A stretch of DNA of 64,000 nt from Haloarcula salinisoli (lineage in GTDB: Archaea; Halobacteriota; Halobacteria; Halobacteriales; Haloarculaceae). The notes beneath the pieces are model-generated. The model was given only the letters and a program-made list of their open reading frames with translations, was not told the origin of the DNA and searched no databases. Each line of letters begins with the position of its first letter. The stretch's first letter is position 1. Below are positions 14,532 through 61,158 of this stretch, one piece after another. The DNA is taken from NCBI RefSeq assembly GCF_019599405.1, contig NZ_RKLQ01000003.1, forward strand, positions 62,001 to 126,000, in the 5' to 3' direction. A program made the position numbers and the translations under genes.

Positions 14532-15779
14532 ATGACGAGAAACGCAGATCGTCGAATCGAGAATCTGCAGGACCGCATCGAGCGGGCCGAGGAGATGAGT
14601 GGAGACGACCAGGACGTGCTGCAGGCCTTCGACAATAGGCTGGCCCTGCTCGGGAGCCAGTACGGCAAGGAACGCCGTGAGAAGCTGCTCAGGCACTGTG
14701 TGCGCATCGCCGAGGAAGTCGGTGGACTGGCCGACGCCCTCGACGACAAGCGAGCTGCCGAGGACATCGTCCGCTGGATTCACGACACCTACGACAACGA
14801 GGAGTCCAACCGGGACTACCGGGTCGCGCTGCGGATGTTCGGGAAGCACGTCAGCGACGGCGACGAGATTCCCGATAGTATCGCGTGGGTCTCGGCGACC
14901 ACGTCGAAGGACTACAACCCGATGCCGAACCCGGCGAAGATGCTCTGGTGGGACGAGCACATCAAGCCCATGCTGAACGAGTGCCGACACGCCCGAGACA
15001 AGGCGCTCATCGCCGTCGCGTGGGACTCCGGGGCCCGGAGCGGGGAACTCCGAAACCTCACCGTCGGCGACGTTTCCGACCACAAATACGGTCTGCGTAT
15101 CTCCGTCGACGGGAAGAAGGGCGAGCGATCGGTCATCCTGACGACCGCCGTTCCCCAACTCCAGCAGTGGCTGAACGTCCATCCGGGGAAGGACCAGCCG
15201 GACGCCCCGCTCTGGTCGAAACTGAGCAAGCCCGAAGATATCAGCTACCAGATGAAGCTCAAAATCCTCAAGAAGCACGCCCGGAAGGCTGGCGTGAACC
15301 ACTGCGACGTGACTTTCACCCGGATGCGCAAGTCTTCCGCTTCCTATCTCGCTTCGGACGGCGTGAATCAGGCCCACATCGAGGACCATCATGGCTGGGA
15401 CCGGGGTTCTGACGTTGCTTCCCGTTATGTTGCTGTCTTCGGCGACGCCAACGACCGCGCTATCGCGCAGGCCCACGGCGTCGACGTGGAAGAGGACGAA
15501 TCCGACCCGATTGCTCCGGTCACCTGCCCCCGCTGCCGGAACGAGACGCCCCGCGACGAACCCACCTGTGTCTGGTGCAGTCAGGCGATGGACGCGGCGG
15601 CTGTCGAAGAACTGGAGCGGGAACAGGACGAGATTCGGTCGGAACTGCTGCAGATTGCCCACGACGACCCTGACTTCCTCGACAACCTCGACCGCGTCGA
15701 GCAATTCATCGAGCTCGGTGACGAGAACCCCGAACTCCTCCGTGAGGCCAGGGAGTTCGCCAGCCTCACCGAGAGCTGA
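14532..15779 (+). CDS. int: Tyrosine recombinase/integrase with C-terminal zinc ribbon
   Basis: 415 aa. An N-terminal helical core-binding region (1-150) precedes a catalytic domain with Arg169 (G-A-R-S-G-E-L), a Lys in the K-K-G beta hairpin (195-196), Arg266, His287 (D-H-H-G-W) and the nucleophile Tyr299 (S-R-Y-V). The usual HxxR box reads T-R-M-R (263-266), so its His is replaced by Thr. Then follows a zinc ribbon (C332-x2-C335, C346-x2-C349) and an acidic helical tail, as in haloarchaeal plasmid and virus integrases. It sits 46 bases from the left att repeat and should catalyse integration into and excision from tRNA-Phe. Confidence 0.92.
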   Translation: MTRNADRRIENLQDRIERAEEMSGDDQDVLQAFDNRLALLGSQYGKERREKLLRHCVRIAEEVGGLADALDDKRAAEDIVRWIHDTYDNEESNRDYRVALRMFGKHVSDGDEIPDSIAWVSATTSKDYNPMPNPAKMLWWDEHIKPMLNECRHARDKALIAVAWDSGARSGELRNLTVGDVSDHKYGLRISVDGKKGERSVILTTAVPQLQQWLNVHPGKDQPDAPLWSKLSKPEDISYQMKLKILKKHARKAGVNHCDVTFTRMRKSSASYLASDGVNQAHIEDHHGWDRGSDVASRYVAVFGDANDRAIAQAHGVDVEEDESDPIAPVTCPRCRNETPRDEPTCVWCSQAMDAAAVEELEREQDEIRSELLQIAHDDPDFLDNLDRVEQFIELGDENPELLREAREFASLTES

Positions 15780-23465: not shown

Positions 23466-24059
23466 GAAGGTCGCGCCCTCGAACTCCCGGTTCACCACTT
23501 CGGCCGTAGGCGCGTTCAGGTACGGCTCGACCGCGGAGAACGACGACCACCCACCGACTTCCATCACTACTCTGGGGTTCATCCGCTCACGCACCAGGAG
23601 CGTCTGCGCGTAGTACCGCCGAAGATCGTGACTCGACAGCTTCTGCCAGTCGGCGTCACCGGTCTCCTCCGCGACTCGCTCGGCGGTGGCCTTGACCCGG
23701 CGCTGTACCGACCGCTCGCTCAGGTCGACGATCGGCTCGTCGCGGTCGATGTCCTCGACGTTGGCGTAGCGGAGTAGTTCGCTCTCGATTTGCTCGGGGA
23801 GGTAAGCGTCGCGAGGTTTCCCGCCGCTCCCCTCAGTGTCCTTCCCCTGGGGAACGCGAAGCCGGGCGTGGCCGTCGACGTGCTTGATGTGTTCCGGGTG
23901 TATCTGGGGTATCTCGAAAGACCGAAGCCCGACTTCCCCGCCGAGCTGGATGATGAGGGAGTCCCGGTAGCTACCCGCGCTCTGCTTGAGGGTCTTGTAC
24001 TCGTCCGGCGTCAGCCAGCAGCGGTACGAATGGTGGTTCTCGTTTCGCTCGATGCGCAT
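23460..24059 (-). CDS. Small catalytic-domain tyrosine recombinase
   Basis: 199 aa, with a catalytic domain and almost no separate core-binding domain. Arg is in G-L-R-S-F-E-I (about 45-51), a Lys in the K-D-T segment (73), then H-D-L-R-R (143-147), G-G-W (168-170) and the likely nucleophile Tyr in V-E-P-Y-L-N (about 178). All catalytic positions are present, including the HxxR that the larger integrase lacks. The role is unclear: dimer resolution of the plasmid form, inversion of cargo, or a remnant of another integration. Confidence 0.85.
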   Translation of the reverse strand: MRIERNENHHSYRCWLTPDEYKTLKQSAGSYRDSLIIQLGGEVGLRSFEIPQIHPEHIKHVDGHARLRVPQGKDTEGSGGKPRDAYLPEQIESELLRYANVEDIDRDEPIVDLSERSVQRRVKATAERVAEETGDADWQKLSSHDLRRYYAQTLLVRERMNPRVVMEVGGWSSFSAVEPYLNAPTAEVVNREFEGATFS

Positions 24060-26975: not shown

Positions 26976-29021
26976 TCAAGCTACCTGAAGTTCGCCTTCT
27001 AACTCGTAAACCCGGCCTGTCTCTTTCAAATGTTCAATATCGTGCTCAATTGAGTCCTGATTAGCATTGACTGTCTCTTCTATTTTTTCTACCGTGGTCC
27101 CCCCGAGCTTTTTGATGGTTTGGATAATTACCCTTCGCCGTTGTTTCTGACTTTTCGCCTGTTCCGTTTCGATTATGTCCGCATCAAATTTGCCACTCTC
27201 AGGATCATAGCCCACTTGCTTCATCGACTTCGTCACGAGTTCAATTGCTCGTTCAACATCCTCAATCTCCACAGTATCCGAAAGACGAACCCGCGCACTC
27301 GACTCTGCCAGCCGCTGTATCGCCTCGACCTTGCGGAACGTCACGGGAATCGGCGAGTCGTCATCTTGCTCGCCAGCTCCAGCTCGGAACTCGACGAAGA
27401 ACTGTTTCAGTCGCTCCGCTACTTCGTCGTCCTCAATAATTGGACGACAGGTCTGCTTGGCGTGAGCGACGTAGGCCCGCATCACCGACCGATCTATCGC
27501 GGGCTCGACCCGCTGCTGTTCCTCGTCACTCAGCTCCTCTCCCCTAGTGTGACGGCCTGCAGCCTGCCGGCTCTGGACCATGTGCTCGACAACATCCGCG
27601 TCGTCCTCCCGGTCTGGCTCGTCGGACACCATGAACATCAGGTCGAACCGGGAGAGGAGCGTCGGGCCCATGTCGATCTGCTCGCCCTTCGGACGGTACC
27701 GCTCGAAGCGCCCGTCCTTCGGATTCCCCGCTGCAAGCAACGAAGTCCGAGCGTTCAGCGTAGCGTTGATACCGGCTTTGTTGACGTGGACCTGCTGGCT
27801 TTCCAGGGCGTCGTGCATCGAGGACACAGCGTCGGACTGCATCTTATCGATCTCGTCGACGCAGGCGATACCTCCGTCGGCCAACACCAGCGCACCAGCT
27901 TCCAGCCCCCATTCGGTATCTCCGAAGTCGTCAGATACAGCCGCTGCCGTCATTCCCGCCGCCGTCGCACCCTTCCCCGAGGCGTACGTCGACCGTGGCG
28001 CAATCTGGTCGACGTAACGGAGGAAGGTAGACTTCCCACAGCCGGGGTCACCGAGGAGGAGCATGTGCCAGTCGCCGCGGTCGCGGCTCCCGTCCGGGTA
28101 CTCGTGGGCCCAGCCGCCGAAGAGCTGCAGCGCGACGGCCAGCTTGACGTGTTCGTCGCCCCGGTGTTTCGGGTTGATCGAGTCGACGAGTAGCTGATAC
28201 GGGTCACCGCGTACCCCGTTGGCGATGGCTTCGATCTCCTCCAGGTGCTCGTCGACGTCGACATCGTCGTAATCGCTCTCCTCTTTCACGACTGAACGCG
28301 CGTCGAGGTTCGTGTCGAAGTCGAGCCCCTGGTCAGCTCCGGGCTCTTCGATGTCGAGAATCCCGGTCAGAACCACCCTGTCACCAGCGTCGAAGCCTTC
28401 TATCAGGTCGTCTTCGAGGTGCGCGTCGACGCTCTGTGCTTCTCCACCGTTCGTTTTCTCAGGCGGTTGCTGGATACGGGCGTACTGGTGGTCTATCCAG
28501 CTACTGGCGCTCGCGTCGAGCGAGAAGGGGCCCTGTCGTTCACACCCCTGGCACTCGTGCGGTTCTTGGAGACTCTCGCCATGCTGTGGAATCTCGGTCT
28601 GGGTCCCACACCGTTGGCACTCCCATACTGCTTCTGTGAGGCGCGGCTTCACGTCCGATACCTTCTGCACCTGTCCGCGGATATCGAGCAACTGGCCGAT
28701 GTTCTCGTGACGGGAGACAGCGGAGGGGTCGAAGACGTGCGTCTCCGGGAGGTTGTAGATGCGGACGTGAGCGTCGTCGAGTTCGACCGCGACCGGCAGG
28801 TCGTAGAGGCGGAGCGCTTCCTCCAGGTGCTCCTGCAGTTGCTTCGGATGGTTCCGCACATCGTCTGCGACATCCGGACTGAACCGGTACAGGTCGTCAT
28901 AGTCGACGTGGAGTGATTTCTCCTCTCGGGGGTAGCGTTGAGCGAGCTGTGCGATCTCTTCCGAGTAGTAGTCCCGGAAGAATTGTATCAGTTCTTCGGT
29001 GAGTTCGTGGTTTTCGGGCAT
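26976..29021 (-). CDS. mcm: MCM replicative helicase (element-borne)
   Basis: 681 aa from the ATG at 29019-29021 (a GTG at 29043-29045 would add eight). The N domain has a zinc-binding C135-x2-C138 and C157-x2-C160 and an OB-fold region. The AAA+ domain has Walker A G-D-P-G-C-G-K-S-T (324-332), Walker B G-G-I-A-C-V-D-E-I-D-K-M, and the arginine finger S-R-F-D. A C-terminal wHTH ends the chain. It forms a hexamer that unwinds DNA ahead of the fork. Its place inside a tRNA-bounded element suggests a plasmid replication protein, not the host MCM, though this cannot be proved from one window. An operator-like dyad lies right before the start. Confidence 0.9.
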   Translation of the reverse strand: MPENHELTEELIQFFRDYYSEEIAQLAQRYPREEKSLHVDYDDLYRFSPDVADDVRNHPKQLQEHLEEALRLYDLPVAVELDDAHVRIYNLPETHVFDPSAVSRHENIGQLLDIRGQVQKVSDVKPRLTEAVWECQRCGTQTEIPQHGESLQEPHECQGCERQGPFSLDASASSWIDHQYARIQQPPEKTNGGEAQSVDAHLEDDLIEGFDAGDRVVLTGILDIEEPGADQGLDFDTNLDARSVVKEESDYDDVDVDEHLEEIEAIANGVRGDPYQLLVDSINPKHRGDEHVKLAVALQLFGGWAHEYPDGSRDRGDWHMLLLGDPGCGKSTFLRYVDQIAPRSTYASGKGATAAGMTAAAVSDDFGDTEWGLEAGALVLADGGIACVDEIDKMQSDAVSSMHDALESQQVHVNKAGINATLNARTSLLAAGNPKDGRFERYRPKGEQIDMGPTLLSRFDLMFMVSDEPDREDDADVVEHMVQSRQAAGRHTRGEELSDEEQQRVEPAIDRSVMRAYVAHAKQTCRPIIEDDEVAERLKQFFVEFRAGAGEQDDDSPIPVTFRKVEAIQRLAESSARVRLSDTVEIEDVERAIELVTKSMKQVGYDPESGKFDADIIETEQAKSQKQRRRVIIQTIKKLGGTTVEKIEETVNANQDSIEHDIEHLKETGRVYELEGELQVA

Positions 29022-29031
29022 CGTGTGAATC

Positions 29032-29046
29032 TGTGAAGTCTTCACA
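29032..29046. promoter_or_regulatory. 15-bp palindrome before mcm
   Basis: TGTGAAG-T-CTTCACA, a perfect 7-1-7 dyad 11 bases before the mcm ATG. A near copy sits at 29223-29237. Likely an operator. Confidence 0.6.
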
Positions 29047-29868: not shown

Positions 29869-29885
29869 GTATGCCGCCTCCCGGA
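29869..29885 (-). other. Right attachment repeat (attR-like) within tRNA-Phe
   Basis: Identical to 14470-14486 and covers the acceptor and part of the T stem of the tRNA-Phe gene, which stays intact on this side. Confidence 0.85.
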
Positions 29886-29945
29886 TTTGAACCGGGGACA
29901 GCTCGATCTTCAGTCGAGTGCTCTCCCAGTCTGAGCTAAGGCGGC
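29872..29945 (-). tRNA. tRNA-Phe (GAA)
   Basis: 74 nt. The acceptor GCCGCCT pairs with AGGCGGC with discriminator A. The D arm is TAGCTCAGACTGGGAGAGC, the anticodon loop CTGAAGA gives GAA, and the T arm is GGTTCAAATCC. No intron; CCA not encoded. Target of the 15.4-kb element. Confidence 0.95.
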
Positions 29946-30117: not shown

Positions 30118-30698
30118 GTATGGTGGTACCGCCACACTGACTAAGTCGTTTTCGGCAGGTGACAGCGGGCTGGCGGATTCGCATCCGTCGGTTCGGCTGA
30201 CCGACGGTTAGAGGGGCGGATTCGAACCGGAGAGAGACTCACTTCGCTCGTCTTTCAGGGCTCGAATCCTCGTTGACCACACAGACGCCGCTGGCTCCTC
30301 GATTGCCTCACGGCTTCGCCGTTCGACTTTTCGTGTCGCTTCGCGCCACGCCTCGCTCGTCGCAGTCGCCCTCAGAAGTGGGTCGGGGCGGAACATCTTC
30401 TCACTCACGTTCGATACCGTCCCTGTGTAGTAGTGCCCAGCCAACGATTTTGGCTCCCGTACCGTCCCACTCGTGAAACGGTGGAATAGGACTCAGTATT
30501 CGAAGCCAGGTTCTTCGTCTCCAATCACTGAACCAGGCTGATCTGGACAGTTTCCCGCACTGTAGTTTGAGACAATGCAGTGACCGCTGGGAGAAACCAT
30601 TTGCAGCCTTTCACAGTGTGCTCCGCTTTGGCACCCCTCCATCTCAACTAAAACGGTGGAATTAGATAGAGTAGAAACAAGAATCATCCTATACAATC
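30118..30698. other. Non-coding interval with tRNA-Val-type T-arm units
   Basis: Contains a short fragment GGCGGATTCGCATCCG (30172-30187) and a complete unit at 30213-30271: GGGGCGGATTCGAACC, an inner hairpin AGACTC...CGTCT, and CTCGAATCC. The rest looks hairpin-rich (GCTTCGCCGTTCGAC). A 64-aa Cys-containing ORF (30493-30687, minus) is listed separately as doubtful. Confidence 0.6.
30493..30687 (-). CDS. Doubtful small Cys-containing ORF
   Basis: 64 aa, with C-Q-S-G-A-H-C-E-R-L and G-H-C-I-V-S and N-C-P, four cysteines. The start is 11 bases from the divergent membrane-protein start, leaving no room for two promoters, so at least one start is wrong or this is a remnant. Confidence 0.3.
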   Translation of the reverse strand: MILVSTLSNSTVLVEMEGCQSGAHCERLQMVSPSGHCIVSNYSAGNCPDQPGSVIGDEEPGFEY

Positions 30699-31307
30699 AT
30701 GGTAGGTGTTCCGCTTAGACTAAACGATATAGAGAACATAATTCGAGAAGATAGGCCAGGCCTCGCTTTCATTTCTGCTGCAGTTTACGCATTCTTCGCC
30801 GTTGAAAACCCATCAATTGACAACACTGTACGTGCGCTGAAAATCTTTGGATACAATCCACCGTCTATCGGTGTGATAGATCCTCAATCAGGATTTCTAC
30901 TGCTTTCTATACTAACTACCGCAACAGGCACGATTGGATACGTCTCGAAAGACGTGTATTTCGTGGAGTATGAGCCTGGCGAATTTGAAAGGGCTAAAAA
31001 GATTACTTACTCGTTGAGTGTATCCCTAAGACTATTACTAATTTTTGCCGCTTTCGGCTTGATCTTTTCACATTCTATTGTTGGAACTACAGATTTATCC
31101 TATCCTTTCGCAGGGTTGGTTATCCTCCAAACCATCGCTGTATTCGCTTATTCCAGACAATTGGGCGTAATGGCATTCATTGCAGCTATATTGGGCCTTC
31201 TATTCCTATCAGCAGCACTAATCGAGTGGCTGCTTGGAAACTTCTCATTTCCAATAGCGGTTATTTTATTGGCGATTTTTCTACTCTTGTATATAAGAGA
31301 TAGGTGA
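30699..31307 (+). CDS. AT-rich multi-pass membrane protein
   Basis: 202 aa with five to six hydrophobic segments (about 22-36, 63-80, 107-127, 134-150, 158-176, 182-198). Codons are far more AT-rich than host genes (Ile ATA, Leu TTA). It lies between tRNA-Val-derived units at 30213-30271 and 31397 onward, so it is probably imported cargo. No family recognised. Confidence 0.65.
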   Translation: MVGVPLRLNDIENIIREDRPGLAFISAAVYAFFAVENPSIDNTVRALKIFGYNPPSIGVIDPQSGFLLLSILTTATGTIGYVSKDVYFVEYEPGEFERAKKITYSLSVSLRLLLIFAAFGLIFSHSIVGTTDLSYPFAGLVILQTIAVFAYSRQLGVMAFIAAILGLLFLSAALIEWLLGNFSFPIAVILLAIFLLLYIRDR

Positions 31308-31396
31308 TGTTATCATCCTATAGCTGCAGGACATGATTTTCCCGGTGTCTCGTCCGAGCGCCGCGAGTCCGAGGAACAGCAGAGCTTTGCTCTGCT

Positions 31397-31725
31397 GGCG
31401 GATTCGAACCACGGTCACTCCGCTCCGCTTCGTTCCCTGGTTCGCATCCGCCGGCCGCTTCACACACGCGCCGCTCATGAGTGAGCGCCGCGAGAAGTTC
31501 AGTGGGTCCGGGCGGATTCGAACCACGCCGAGACGTGCTCGCGTCGCTGCGCGCGTCTCGTCTGCTTCGCATCCGCCGGATTTCACTCTTCGTTCCTCAC
31601 GTCCGTTCGTCACAGAAGAGTGGGTCCGGGCGGATTCGAACCGGAGGAAGACTCACTGCGTTCGTCTTCCAGGGTGTCGAATCCGTCCTCCGTCACGATT
31701 CTGTCGCTCGCGGATTGCTCGCGAC
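31397..31725 (-). repeat. Tandem tRNA-Val-derived palindromic units
   Basis: Three units lie downstream of tRNA-Val. They begin at 31397 (GGCGGATTCGAACC), 31504 and 31621 (both GGGTCCGGGCGGATTCGAACC, the complement of the tRNA-Val T arm and acceptor end). Each continues into an inner hairpin (for example GAAGACTC...CGTCTTC) and ends in an inverted T-arm-like TCGAATCC or TTCGCATCC. Period about 107-117 bases, ending with the true tRNA at 31734. Confidence 0.8.
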
Positions 31726-31733
31726 AGGAATAG

Positions 31734-31807
31734 TGGGTCCGGGCGGATTCGAACCACCGACCTCGGCCTTGTAAAGGCCACGTCATAACCGACTAGACCA
31801 CGGACCC
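31734..31807 (-). tRNA. tRNA-Val (UAC)
   Basis: 74 nt. The acceptor GGGTCCG pairs with CGGACCC, discriminator A. The anticodon stem is TGGCC/GGCCG with loop TTTACAA, anticodon TAC. The T arm is GGTGG-TTCGAAT-CCGCC. No intron, CCA not encoded. Confidence 0.93.
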
Positions 31808-41414: not shown

Positions 41415-41596
41415 TCCCGCGGACCTATTTCTCGCTCGATAGTATAGTTTCCCCTCCGCGGCGCACTCGGCGCCTTCCTACTCGTCCGCCGGCTCGAACC
41501 GCCGAGAGACTTCGTCTCTCGTGCTCCGAAGTCGTTCGCTACTCGCTCACGACTTCGAACCGCCGGGCGACGACGTCGCCCGTGCTTCGAGCCGGC

Positions 41597-58848: not shown

Positions 58849-59360
58849 GCGCCCGGAGCGGGATTTGAACCCGGGCAAACGCTCGCTAACGCTCGCGTTT
58901 GCGTGATTCAAATCCCTCACAGCCGCACAGCGAAAGCAGAACGCGGCGCGATGAAACGCGCCGCTTGCCAATTTGAGTTCGAAGAAGCGCCCGGAGCGGG
59001 ATTTGAACCGGAGCCAGACGTGCTCGCTCCCTTCGGTCGCTGTGCGCGACTGGCAGGGTTCAAATCCCTCGTAGTCGTTCACAGATTCGAGCGGTTGCGA
59101 CGCGATGAAACGCGTCGCTTGGTAGTTTGAAATTGAAGAACGCCCGGAGCGGGATTTGAACCGAAAGAAGACTCGCTGACGCTCGTCTTCTAGGGTTCAA
59201 ATCCGCTCATTTCCGTTTCAACTGCTCACGGAGACGAGCACACGCTACGCGGTGCTCGCCGATTTGTTCGCAGTAGAAGACGCCCGGAGCGGGATTTGAA
59301 CCGGAACCAGACGTGCTCGCTCCCTTCGGTCGCTGTGCGCGACTGGCAGGGTTCAAATCC
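58849..59360 (-). repeat. Tandem tRNA-Asp-derived palindromic units
   Basis: Four units begin at 58849, 58988, 59141 and 59281. Each opens (G)CGCCCGGAGCGGGATTTGAACC, the exact complement of the tRNA-Asp T arm and acceptor end, continues into an inner hairpin (for example GAAGACTCG...CGTCTTC) and closes with the inverted T-arm GGTTCAAATCC. Period 139-157 bases, ending at the true tRNA (59437). Units 1 and the tRNA also share about 40 bases of downstream flank. Confidence 0.85.
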
Positions 59361-59436
59361 ACTCATCCGCGTTACCTCGAACTCGCTGTCGCTCGGCGAC
59401 GAGACGCCTCGCTGGGGAGTTAAGTTAGAGAGAAAG

Positions 59437-59509
59437 CGCCCGGAGCGGGATTTGAACCCGCGTCACAACCGTGACAGGGTTGTATGATGGGCCACTACAC
59501 CATCCGGGC
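59437..59509 (-). tRNA. tRNA-Asp (GUC)
   Basis: 73 nt. The acceptor GCCCGGA pairs with TCCGGGC, discriminator G. The anticodon loop CTGTCAC gives GTC and the T arm is GGGTTCAAATCCC. No intron. Confidence 0.95.
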
Positions 59510-59844: not shown

Positions 59845-61158
59845 ATGTCTGTTGTCGTGAGGCGAACCAACACGTTTGTGGTACGTCCACTTTCCGACGA
59901 CGACGAGCGGATACTGCGAGACCTGTTGGACGCCTCTGCGAGCCTGTGGAACGAACTCAATCACGAGCGCCGCCAGCAGTTCTTCGATGGTGAAAGCGTC
60001 TGGGACACCGCCGACTACCGCAAACAGTACGTCGGTGTTCTCGGCTCTGCCACCGCACAGCAAGTGATTCGAAAGAACAAGTCAGCGTGGCAGTCGTTCT
60101 TCGCCGCCAGCGAGAACGCCGAGAATACTGCTCCGCCGGGCTACTGGGGCAACGAGGAAGAAGGCCGCGAGCTACGCACCTTCATCCGCAACGACTCCTA
60201 CACGCCGGAAACCGGTGAGCGGTCGCGGCTGGAAATTCCAGTCGGCCAAGACCTGAAAGACGAACACGGCCTTGGCTACCACGACCGCCTTCGCCTCGAA
60301 GTGCGTGGCACCCCGAAGTGGGAGGGAGAACAGGGCCGTTTGGAGATACAGTACGACGAGACAGACGACACGCTCAGGGCCTTTCAGCCTGTCACTGTAC
60401 CTAATTCTCGGCAGGATTCACCATTGACTTCTCACGAAGCCGCGCTGGACGTGGGCGCAAACAATCTCGTCGCCTGTACCACCACGACTGGCCAGCAGTA
60501 TCTCTACGAAGGCCGAGACCTGTTCGACCGCTTCCGCGAGACGACCGAGGAAATCGCCCGTCTCCAGTCCAAACTTCGTGACGGGCGGTACAGCAGTCAG
60601 CGGATACGACGGCTGTACCGCAAACGGACTCGGCGGCGCGACCACGCACAGGATGCACTGGTACGGGATTTGATGGAACGACTGTACGCCGAAGGTGTCG
60701 CTACAGTGTACGTGGGCGACCTCACCGACGTTCTCTTGACGCACTGGTGCGCCGAGGTGAACGCAAAGACCAACCAGTTTTGGGCGTTCCGGGCGTTCAT
60801 CGACCGATTAGGGTGTACCGCTGAGGAGTATGGCATCTCGGTCGAAGTGCGGTCGGAAGCAAACACAACCCAAACGTGCCCAGTGTGTGGCGAGCAGGAC
60901 GACACCGACCGGGACGGCGATGTGTTCCGGTGTCCGTGCGGTCACGAAGCTCATGCCGACCTGTGCGCGTCTCGGACGTTCCTCGAACAGCAGGCTGGCG
61001 AACCCGAAGTCGGGTCGATGGCTCGGCCCGTGCGTCTCACGTGGGACGACCACCGTTGGTCGGAGCTACCATACTCTCCCGAGAGCGAAAGTCCCAACGA
61101 GAAGCGCACAAACCGGAGTACCGGCGACGGGAAACTTGCCTCGGTGGGGACAGCATAG
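59845..61158 (+). CDS. tnpB: TnpB (RNA-guided nuclease family) of the IS1341 type
   Basis: 437 aa. RuvC-I Asp202 in A-L-D-V-G-A, RuvC-III Asp372 in H-A-D-L, and zinc finger C345-x2-C348 with C363-x-C365. The RuvC-II region reads [12 protein letters not shown]: no glutamate is present where related haloarchaeal proteins, as I remember them, have D-V-L-E-T-H-W. So the nuclease may be inactive. TnpB normally binds an omegaRNA made from the 3' end of its gene. ATG at 59845 chosen by position of the family start M-S-V-V-V-R-R. Confidence 0.88.

Follow-up and report, generated by a model that had tools for sequence, protein, structure and literature searches.

The question raised by this locus is what the short units that follow one another behind a tRNA gene are, given that their ends match that tRNA and their interiors match units at other tRNAs. 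In the window, by which we mean the whole stretch of 64,000 nucleotides of Haloarcula salinisoli DNA analysed here, the tRNA-Val(tac) gene occupies 31733-31807 on the minus strand, and its own T54-N73 segment, which reads TGGGTCCGGGCGGATTCGAA... on the plus strand from 31734, provides the template for the tails of the units. All elements of the array lie on the same minus strand. An S module, S4 (31687-31733), separates the gene from unit V3 (31630-31686; 60.7 bits), which consists of a left arm, the H hairpin (GGAAGAC...GTCTTCC) and a right arm and is closed by a complete copy of the tRNA-Val 3' end, G52-N73 (31621-31642). An S module of the CTGTGACGAACGGACGTGAGGAACG type (31577-31620) separates V3 from V2 (31512-31576; 63.3 bits), which is closed by another complete 3' end copy (31503-31524), and S3 (31452-31502) separates V2 from V1 (31398-31451; 44.7 bits), where a hairpin stands in place of the acceptor part of the tail. 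Then follow an AT-rich gene and, at the distal end of the array, V0 (30216-30271; 63.1 bits), preceded by a partial S1 module. The three units that the earlier note had read from 31397, 31504 and 31621 are thus recovered as V1, V2 and V3, and the related unit that it had placed beyond an AT-rich membrane-protein gene, at 30213-30271, is V0. Its statement that the T-arm ends are specific to tRNA-Val also stands, whereas a full tail cannot be claimed for the units at 31397 and 30213, from which the acceptor part is missing; the entire tail is found only in the tRNA-proximal V2 and V3. A gapped inverted T-loop pattern matches the window three times, against none expected from 100 dinucleotide shuffles.

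The second array of the window follows tRNA-Asp(gtc) (59437-59509, minus strand) with four units on that strand, D4 (59290-59362), D3 (59150-59206), D2 (58997-59069) and D1 (58859-58917). In both arrays tRNA-specific T-arm ends enclose shared interiors, bearing out the suggestion that tRNA-Val and tRNA-Asp units have their inner hairpins in common. A search of the window with Rfam 15 at gathering score returned three tRNAs only, and the units belong to no Rfam family. One window match, at 41489-41535 (27.3 bits), looks spurious. A TnpB-type gene (OrfB_IS605, Cas12f1-like TNB; window 59857-61000) is situated about 350 bp away from the tRNA-Asp 5' end.

The full cassette, non-coding and about 100-150 bp long, is arranged in the order spacer hairpin S, inverted half-T-arm, inner hairpin H and a copy of T54-N73 of its own tRNA, the 20-nt tail with which it closes. 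The combination of tRNA-matched ends with a common interior, which the earlier note had claimed for two different tRNAs, extends to 27 kinds of tRNA within the examined set. Tails were compared in 116 units whose locus includes a tRNA, taken from 134 distinct units in 96 loci; the 18 left out were eight whose locus had no same-strand tRNA upstream and ten whose right arm was not read by the pattern. At every position from T54 to N73 the tails show an identity of 0.79-1.00 to the own tRNA, compared with about 0.28-0.44 to other tRNAs at the positions that discriminate among tRNAs. Past N73 the match to the own tRNA is 0.50 against 0.43 for others, and further out it is at background level. Because identity is high over T54-N73 and falls at N73+1, we take the copied segment to be T54-N73, and no CCA was seen in the tail copies of the unit sequences inspected. 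The left arm (GGATTYGAAC in the alignment, facing a right arm GGTTCRAATCC) tracks the own tRNA at base 57, with R57 at 0.97 versus 0.46 for other tRNAs; otherwise it is only partly tRNA-matched, the stem being weak and the next stem positions reaching 0.59 and 0.49, and it could not be read in 24 of the 116 units. Between different tRNAs and families, the identity of H modules reaches 98% over 41 nt, so that a lack of homology among unit interiors, which would have refuted the shared design, is not what we found.

How widely such units occur was judged with a covariance model built from 28 units. The whole genome (4.03 Mb in 10 contigs, with 44 tRNAs, namely 42 by Rfam plus Trp and Gln-ctg) gave 34 matches at E below 1e-6, all 3' of a tRNA: four each at Asp and Val-tac, two each at Gly-gcc, Leu-gag, Lys-ttt, Lys-ctt and Glu-ttc, and one at each of sixteen others. 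Units thus stand at 23 of the 44 tRNA genes, and the model finds none at the other 21. Three units that seemed to lie far from tRNAs in fact follow tRNA-Trp (with an intron), tRNA-Gln and tRNA-Met, the last of which is separated from its unit by a 7-kb island, and the unit at C1:1109023 is preceded by a tRNA-like end at an Rfam tRNA match. Reading of the flanks showed same-strand copies of the own 3' end about 100-600 bp downstream of 17 ARAGORN-reported tRNAs, with Gly-tcc resting on a weak, 3-mismatch match. Among relatives, 56 of 60 genomes (own included) and 23 of 26 genera have units. In a sample of 294 genomes of the phylum, 52 have matches, all from the order of the window; the model matched nothing outside the order in this sample, and the order itself has at least one genome (G094) without a match. 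An exact H pattern searched in one genome per species (84,980 species) matched 18 places, all in records that are haloarchaea by name except one uncultured archaeon. Fifteen of these have a same-strand tRNA within 1.5 kb upstream; of the remaining three, one is at a contig edge and two are behind apparent bare tRNA 3'-end copies (L203 and L207, the latter, from Haloarcula pellucida, being the same array as L094 of the genus of the window). The cassette family is non-coding and confined to one haloarchaeal order. Two arrangements were noticed on the way: tandem tRNA-Asp gene pairs about 50-1460 bp apart with units behind them (L166, L072 and L087), and a unit array behind the 3' half of a tRNA-Gly (L144:13085-13145), which seems to mark the distal end of an element by which this tRNA was split near its anticodon.

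The structure of H bears on what the units might be. RNAalifold on a MAFFT alignment yielded just four pairs, owing to the variable inner lengths, and the structure was then assigned by hand from single folds, so that counts on the alignment called A2 lean to that structure. We therefore give counts for A4, a relatives-only alignment of 110 rows, 108 of them distinct (L115 and L120, on the plus strand, are reverse-strand duplicates of units already included), which contains no model-building sequence, yet was fitted to the model. Paired cells amount to 88.5% compared with 77.5% after shuffling, and cells with double changes to 261 compared with 94.6 among the 108 distinct units. Covariation is observed at all seven pairs of the inner helix, and the base-57 pair is UA in 54 units, CG in 53 and UG in one, never unpaired. 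A conserved asymmetric internal loop of the 'CT/TCC' type divides the two helices, and a common T.T mismatch site is unpaired in 69 of 108. Of 116 units, 89 have the apical loop NC-GNA-GN' on the tRNA-sense strand only, two on the other strand only and 25 on neither. As integron sites do, the units present a folded palindrome with conserved unpaired features on one strand. GNA loops form extraordinarily stable DNA mini-hairpins (PMC4686876).

Such covariation fits RNA as well as DNA, and the units might be structured RNA made from the pre-tRNA transcript: transcription from the tRNA promoter would run on through tails and hairpins, and the processed products would serve as trailer, terminator or small RNAs. 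Their position on the tRNA strand, 3' of the tRNA, would suit this, as would the strong covariation, the sense-strand loops and a G-U share of 5.8% among paired cells of the outer helix 1, comparable to tRNA stems (4.2%, 85 tRNAs). The inner helix 2, in contrast, is nearly without G-U (1.0%, 6 of 590 paired cells, T.T site left out). This scarcity makes us lean towards folding as DNA rather than RNA, an inference that falls short of proof because related sequences are not independent. An RNA function would also have to accommodate the 21 of 44 tRNA genes at which no unit was found, the absence of any Rfam family, and two observations considered next, namely a traceless absence at tRNA-Ile in five sisters and a turnover of composition at one tRNA between close species that is unusual for functional RNA. 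On balance, we consider a transcript-derived RNA family unlikely.

At tRNA-Ile of G006 one unit is present with two 22-nt tail copies 147 bp apart, followed by TACCGAGTTC. In five of the 12 genomes searched (G011, G018, G021, G028 and G031) we observe the exact empty site, the tRNA being followed directly by TACCGAGTTC. Elsewhere G023 has a related S-H, G015 an S-like start, and G005, G009, G019 and G027 other sequence; G003 was not read, and whether the difference reflects gain or loss is unresolved. Exchange of modules is observed at tRNA-Val, where the arrays of G006 and G011 are identical at 166 of 173 and 416 of 432 positions in the flanks and at only 20 of 32 in H, with the switch falling between GGGCGGTTCGAA and GGTTCGAATCC and the arms intact. 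Val arrays of the genus are mosaics, and the make-up of the array at a given tRNA turns over from one close species to the next. Over 519 same-tRNA pairs (Val and others), 16 have the same H with a different S, two the same S with a different H, and 27 share both. Between G006 and G011, eight arrays show essentially no change close to the tRNA (Gly-gcc, Val-gac, Ser-cga, Ser-gga, Leu-gag, Leu-tag, Gly-ccc and the first unit of Leu-taa) and five are changed (Val-tac, Arg-cct, Gln-ctg, Lys-ttt and Lys-ctt); Arg-ccg, Ser-tga, Phe and Val-cac were excluded, since the tRNAs were unmatched or the flanks differed. H is exactly inverted between its arms at tRNA-Phe of G060, and a hybrid inverted H is suspected in L119; these are the only two inversions noticed.

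These observations point to units being gained, lost and swapped between species by an undescribed genetic shuffling system. Let us consider, however, that the units are scars of integrative elements: viruses or plasmids integrating at the T-loop would leave their ends, S by the tRNA and H before the displaced tail, after deletion of the body, and general recombination between tails would afterwards reshape the arrays. The insert is bracketed by direct repeats of the tRNA 3' end, just as haloarchaeal proviruses are by tRNA duplications of 22 and 43 nt (PMC3119063), and the presence/absence at tRNA-Ile could be loss between the 22-bp repeats. One change of unit number, a length change at tRNA-Gln between G006 and G011, breaks inside a 17-bp repeat in H, which implies that ordinary, general repeat recombination also acts. 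What this account does not readily provide is one structural family at 27 tRNA kinds throughout the order, for unrelated integrases would leave unrelated ends; nor is the covariation of H, by which we judge H to be maintained, expected of a scar.

The DNA between V1 and V0 adds a further aspect. This cargo region (30272-31397, no strand assigned) contains, on the plus strand at 30699-31307, an ORF for a membrane protein of 202 aa with several hydrophobic segments, having a GC content of 44% against 63% for the window and no Pfam match. The 30.27-31.40 kb cargo is present in the own genome only and lacking at 25 sister loci; the gap between tRNA-Val and tRNA-Phe is 1787 nt here versus 332-760 nt in the 25 other members of the genus where the pair is retained in one locus, four further sister loci without one or both of these tRNAs being outside the 25. 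Over 293 genomes of the order, own included, the sole relative of the ORF is one weak 27% match. Conservation of the membrane gene in sisters without units would have spoken against the earlier note, and that match, alone in 292 other genomes of the order, is not such conservation. The layout (unit tail, cargo, partial S, unit) fits the idea of cargo trapped between units; by what route the cargo entered has not been shown.

Islands do occur at unit-bearing tRNAs, as the scar account would have it. At tRNA-Phe of G077, from another genus, two near-identical S-H-tail units enclose a 3.7-kb island that encodes an archaeal ATPase (ATPase_2/DUF234) and a GTPase; in G032 a 75% identical stretch spanning the gene for this ATPase follows a tRNA-Glu array, and no clean empty site for the island was found in G101. 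At tRNA-Met of the own genome (G000, L128:1500-8200), the 7-kb island, which carries AbiEii/AbiEi and an AAA helicase, lies between the intron-bearing tRNA and the array, its end being a copy, 13-14 nt long, of the tRNA 3' end. This copy resembles the 13-14-bp site of SNJ2 (PMC8371274). Since islands of the tRNA-Met type entered between tRNA and array at such a 3'-end copy, not every island uses units. In the window itself, two tyrosine-recombinase domains (PF00589) are found at 14970-15437 and 23511-24017 (G000:C3:76970-77437 and 85511-86017), where an island near tRNA-Phe is possible. An MCM-like ORF of 689 aa (26976-29045), so labelled from its own sequence without a homology search, is on the 3' side of tRNA-Phe (29872-29945, minus strand), with AT-rich DNA beyond.

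We propose that the units are recombination cassettes, with the T-loop/tail sequence as the exchange site and H as the recognised structure, a reading in which our belief and our doubt are about evenly matched. Cassettes would enter, leave and exchange at the T-loop/tail sequence 3' of a tRNA gene, and because every tail equals the 3' end of the tRNA itself, the tRNA would stay intact whichever copy recombined. On the tRNA-sense strand, H forms an imperfect hairpin with a conserved asymmetric internal loop, a common T.T mismatch and a GNA apical loop, and it is probably recognised by a recombinase as a folded single DNA strand. Occasionally gene-bearing DNA might land between a tail and the S-H that follows it, the tRNA-Val array being an example. 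The anatomy, the tRNA-matched tails, the covariation, the distribution, the exact presence and absence and the exchange of modules are shown by the data; that recombination is site-specific and not general, that the folded form is DNA and not RNA, and that a dedicated enzyme exists are inferences. The enzyme has not been identified: integrases are present elsewhere in the genome, and counts of tyrosine recombinases neither separate unit-bearing from unit-less genomes nor single out a candidate. No circular or free form of a unit was seen, nor were free copies found in viral, phage and plasmid collections, whose haloarchaeal share was not counted; blastn against phages and plasmids returned no unit. 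A strict pattern scan of viral contigs gave no match, and two looser scans of 2.9 million viral contigs gave one and two matches; these three comprise a place with neither tRNA nor unit, a plain tRNA-Thr, and a unit beside a host tRNA-Glu. That these scans gave a single unit, adjoining a host tRNA, is also difficult to reconcile with scars of viruses, and together with the maintenance of H leaves that account doubtful, if still worth keeping in view.

Being palindromic, strand-polar and non-coding, the units could perhaps instead be non-autonomous hairpin elements moved by a Y1/HUH transposase (REP, PATE or IS200/IS605-like) and inserting only behind tRNA genes. The TnpB gene some 350 bp from tRNA-Asp might be taken in this sense. 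REP, MITE and PATE repeats are likewise short, non-coding, palindromic and multi-copy, and they are not confined to tRNA genes; in the own genome, 34 of 34 units are behind tRNAs. PATEs are common in Haloquadratum, and PATEs and other IS200-IS605 derivatives have near-terminal palindromes (PMC3119063). PATE and IS605 elements make no target duplication (PMC3119063), unlike full units with their 20-nt tRNA-matched tail. We regard transposition of this kind as very unlikely.

Among the closest known systems are integron cassette arrays, with their attC sites and IntI: both they and the units have imperfect palindromes, conserved unpaired positions, strand polarity, head-to-tail arrangement, occasional genes between sites and a GTT...AAC pair at the outer ends. 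The attC R box has the consensus GTTRRRY / RYYYAAC, whereas the outer box of the units is GTTCRAAT, with C as the fourth base. Moreover, successive units, about 100-150 bp apart, are mostly without an intervening gene (the tRNA-Val array has one ORF-bearing interval), and the site is tied to host tRNA sequence at half of the tRNA genes rather than to one platform. The integron integrase TIGR02249 scored above its 265-bit cut-off in none of 41 genomes, the own genome giving no match. Membership among integrons or CALINs thus fails on integrase, outer box and the gene between most sites. That the units are an archaeal counterpart of integrons, an undescribed site-specific system of independent origin with tRNA T-loops as landing sites and folded single-strand hairpins as cassette sites, spread over many tRNA genes, is possible, and we offer it only tentatively.

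Haloarchaeal proviruses and elements of the SNJ2 type also come to lie with the intact tRNA on one side and a duplicate of its 3' end on the other; unlike them, the insert of a unit measures about 100-150 bp, carries neither a gene nor an integrase, forms arrays and, as one structural family, occurs at 27 tRNA kinds. The 178-bp repeats of E. coli tyrT (rtT RNA) are reportedly tandem repeats behind a single tRNA locus, in which every repeat opens with the 3' end of that tRNA. The units share this start and the position downstream of the tRNA, and differ in occurring at many tRNAs throughout an order with a shared hairpin interior. In a literature search on tRNA-linked sites and repeats of haloarchaea that left out most subscription journals, we found no description of the family in titles or the openings of abstracts, and an earlier description is possible. 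We know of no described repeat designed with ends that name the host gene around a universally shared interior. A recombination system, if that is what the units represent, would explain the changeability of haloarchaeal tRNA flanks, offer a natural tool for T-loop-targeted integration and constitute a second, independent case of folded-strand cassette recombination; an RNA family would be a large, unannotated one beside the best-studied genes of an archaeal order. For annotation, the mapping of islands can be misled by tail copies that pass for att sites or tRNA pseudogenes.

Lastly, two variations of the modules were observed. A second module type, T2, consists of two hairpins with GACCCTCGCGAA...TTCGCTCGGTC and was seen in L036, L121, L122 and L009 (second Lys-ctt unit); it sits within the tail copies of several tRNAs, separating T-stem from acceptor, and one and the same T2 recurs in successive units. 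At tRNA-Phe of G093 (L152), a palindromic insert of about 80-90 nt (CTATAGTAGC...GTTACTATAG) lies within the H hairpin itself.
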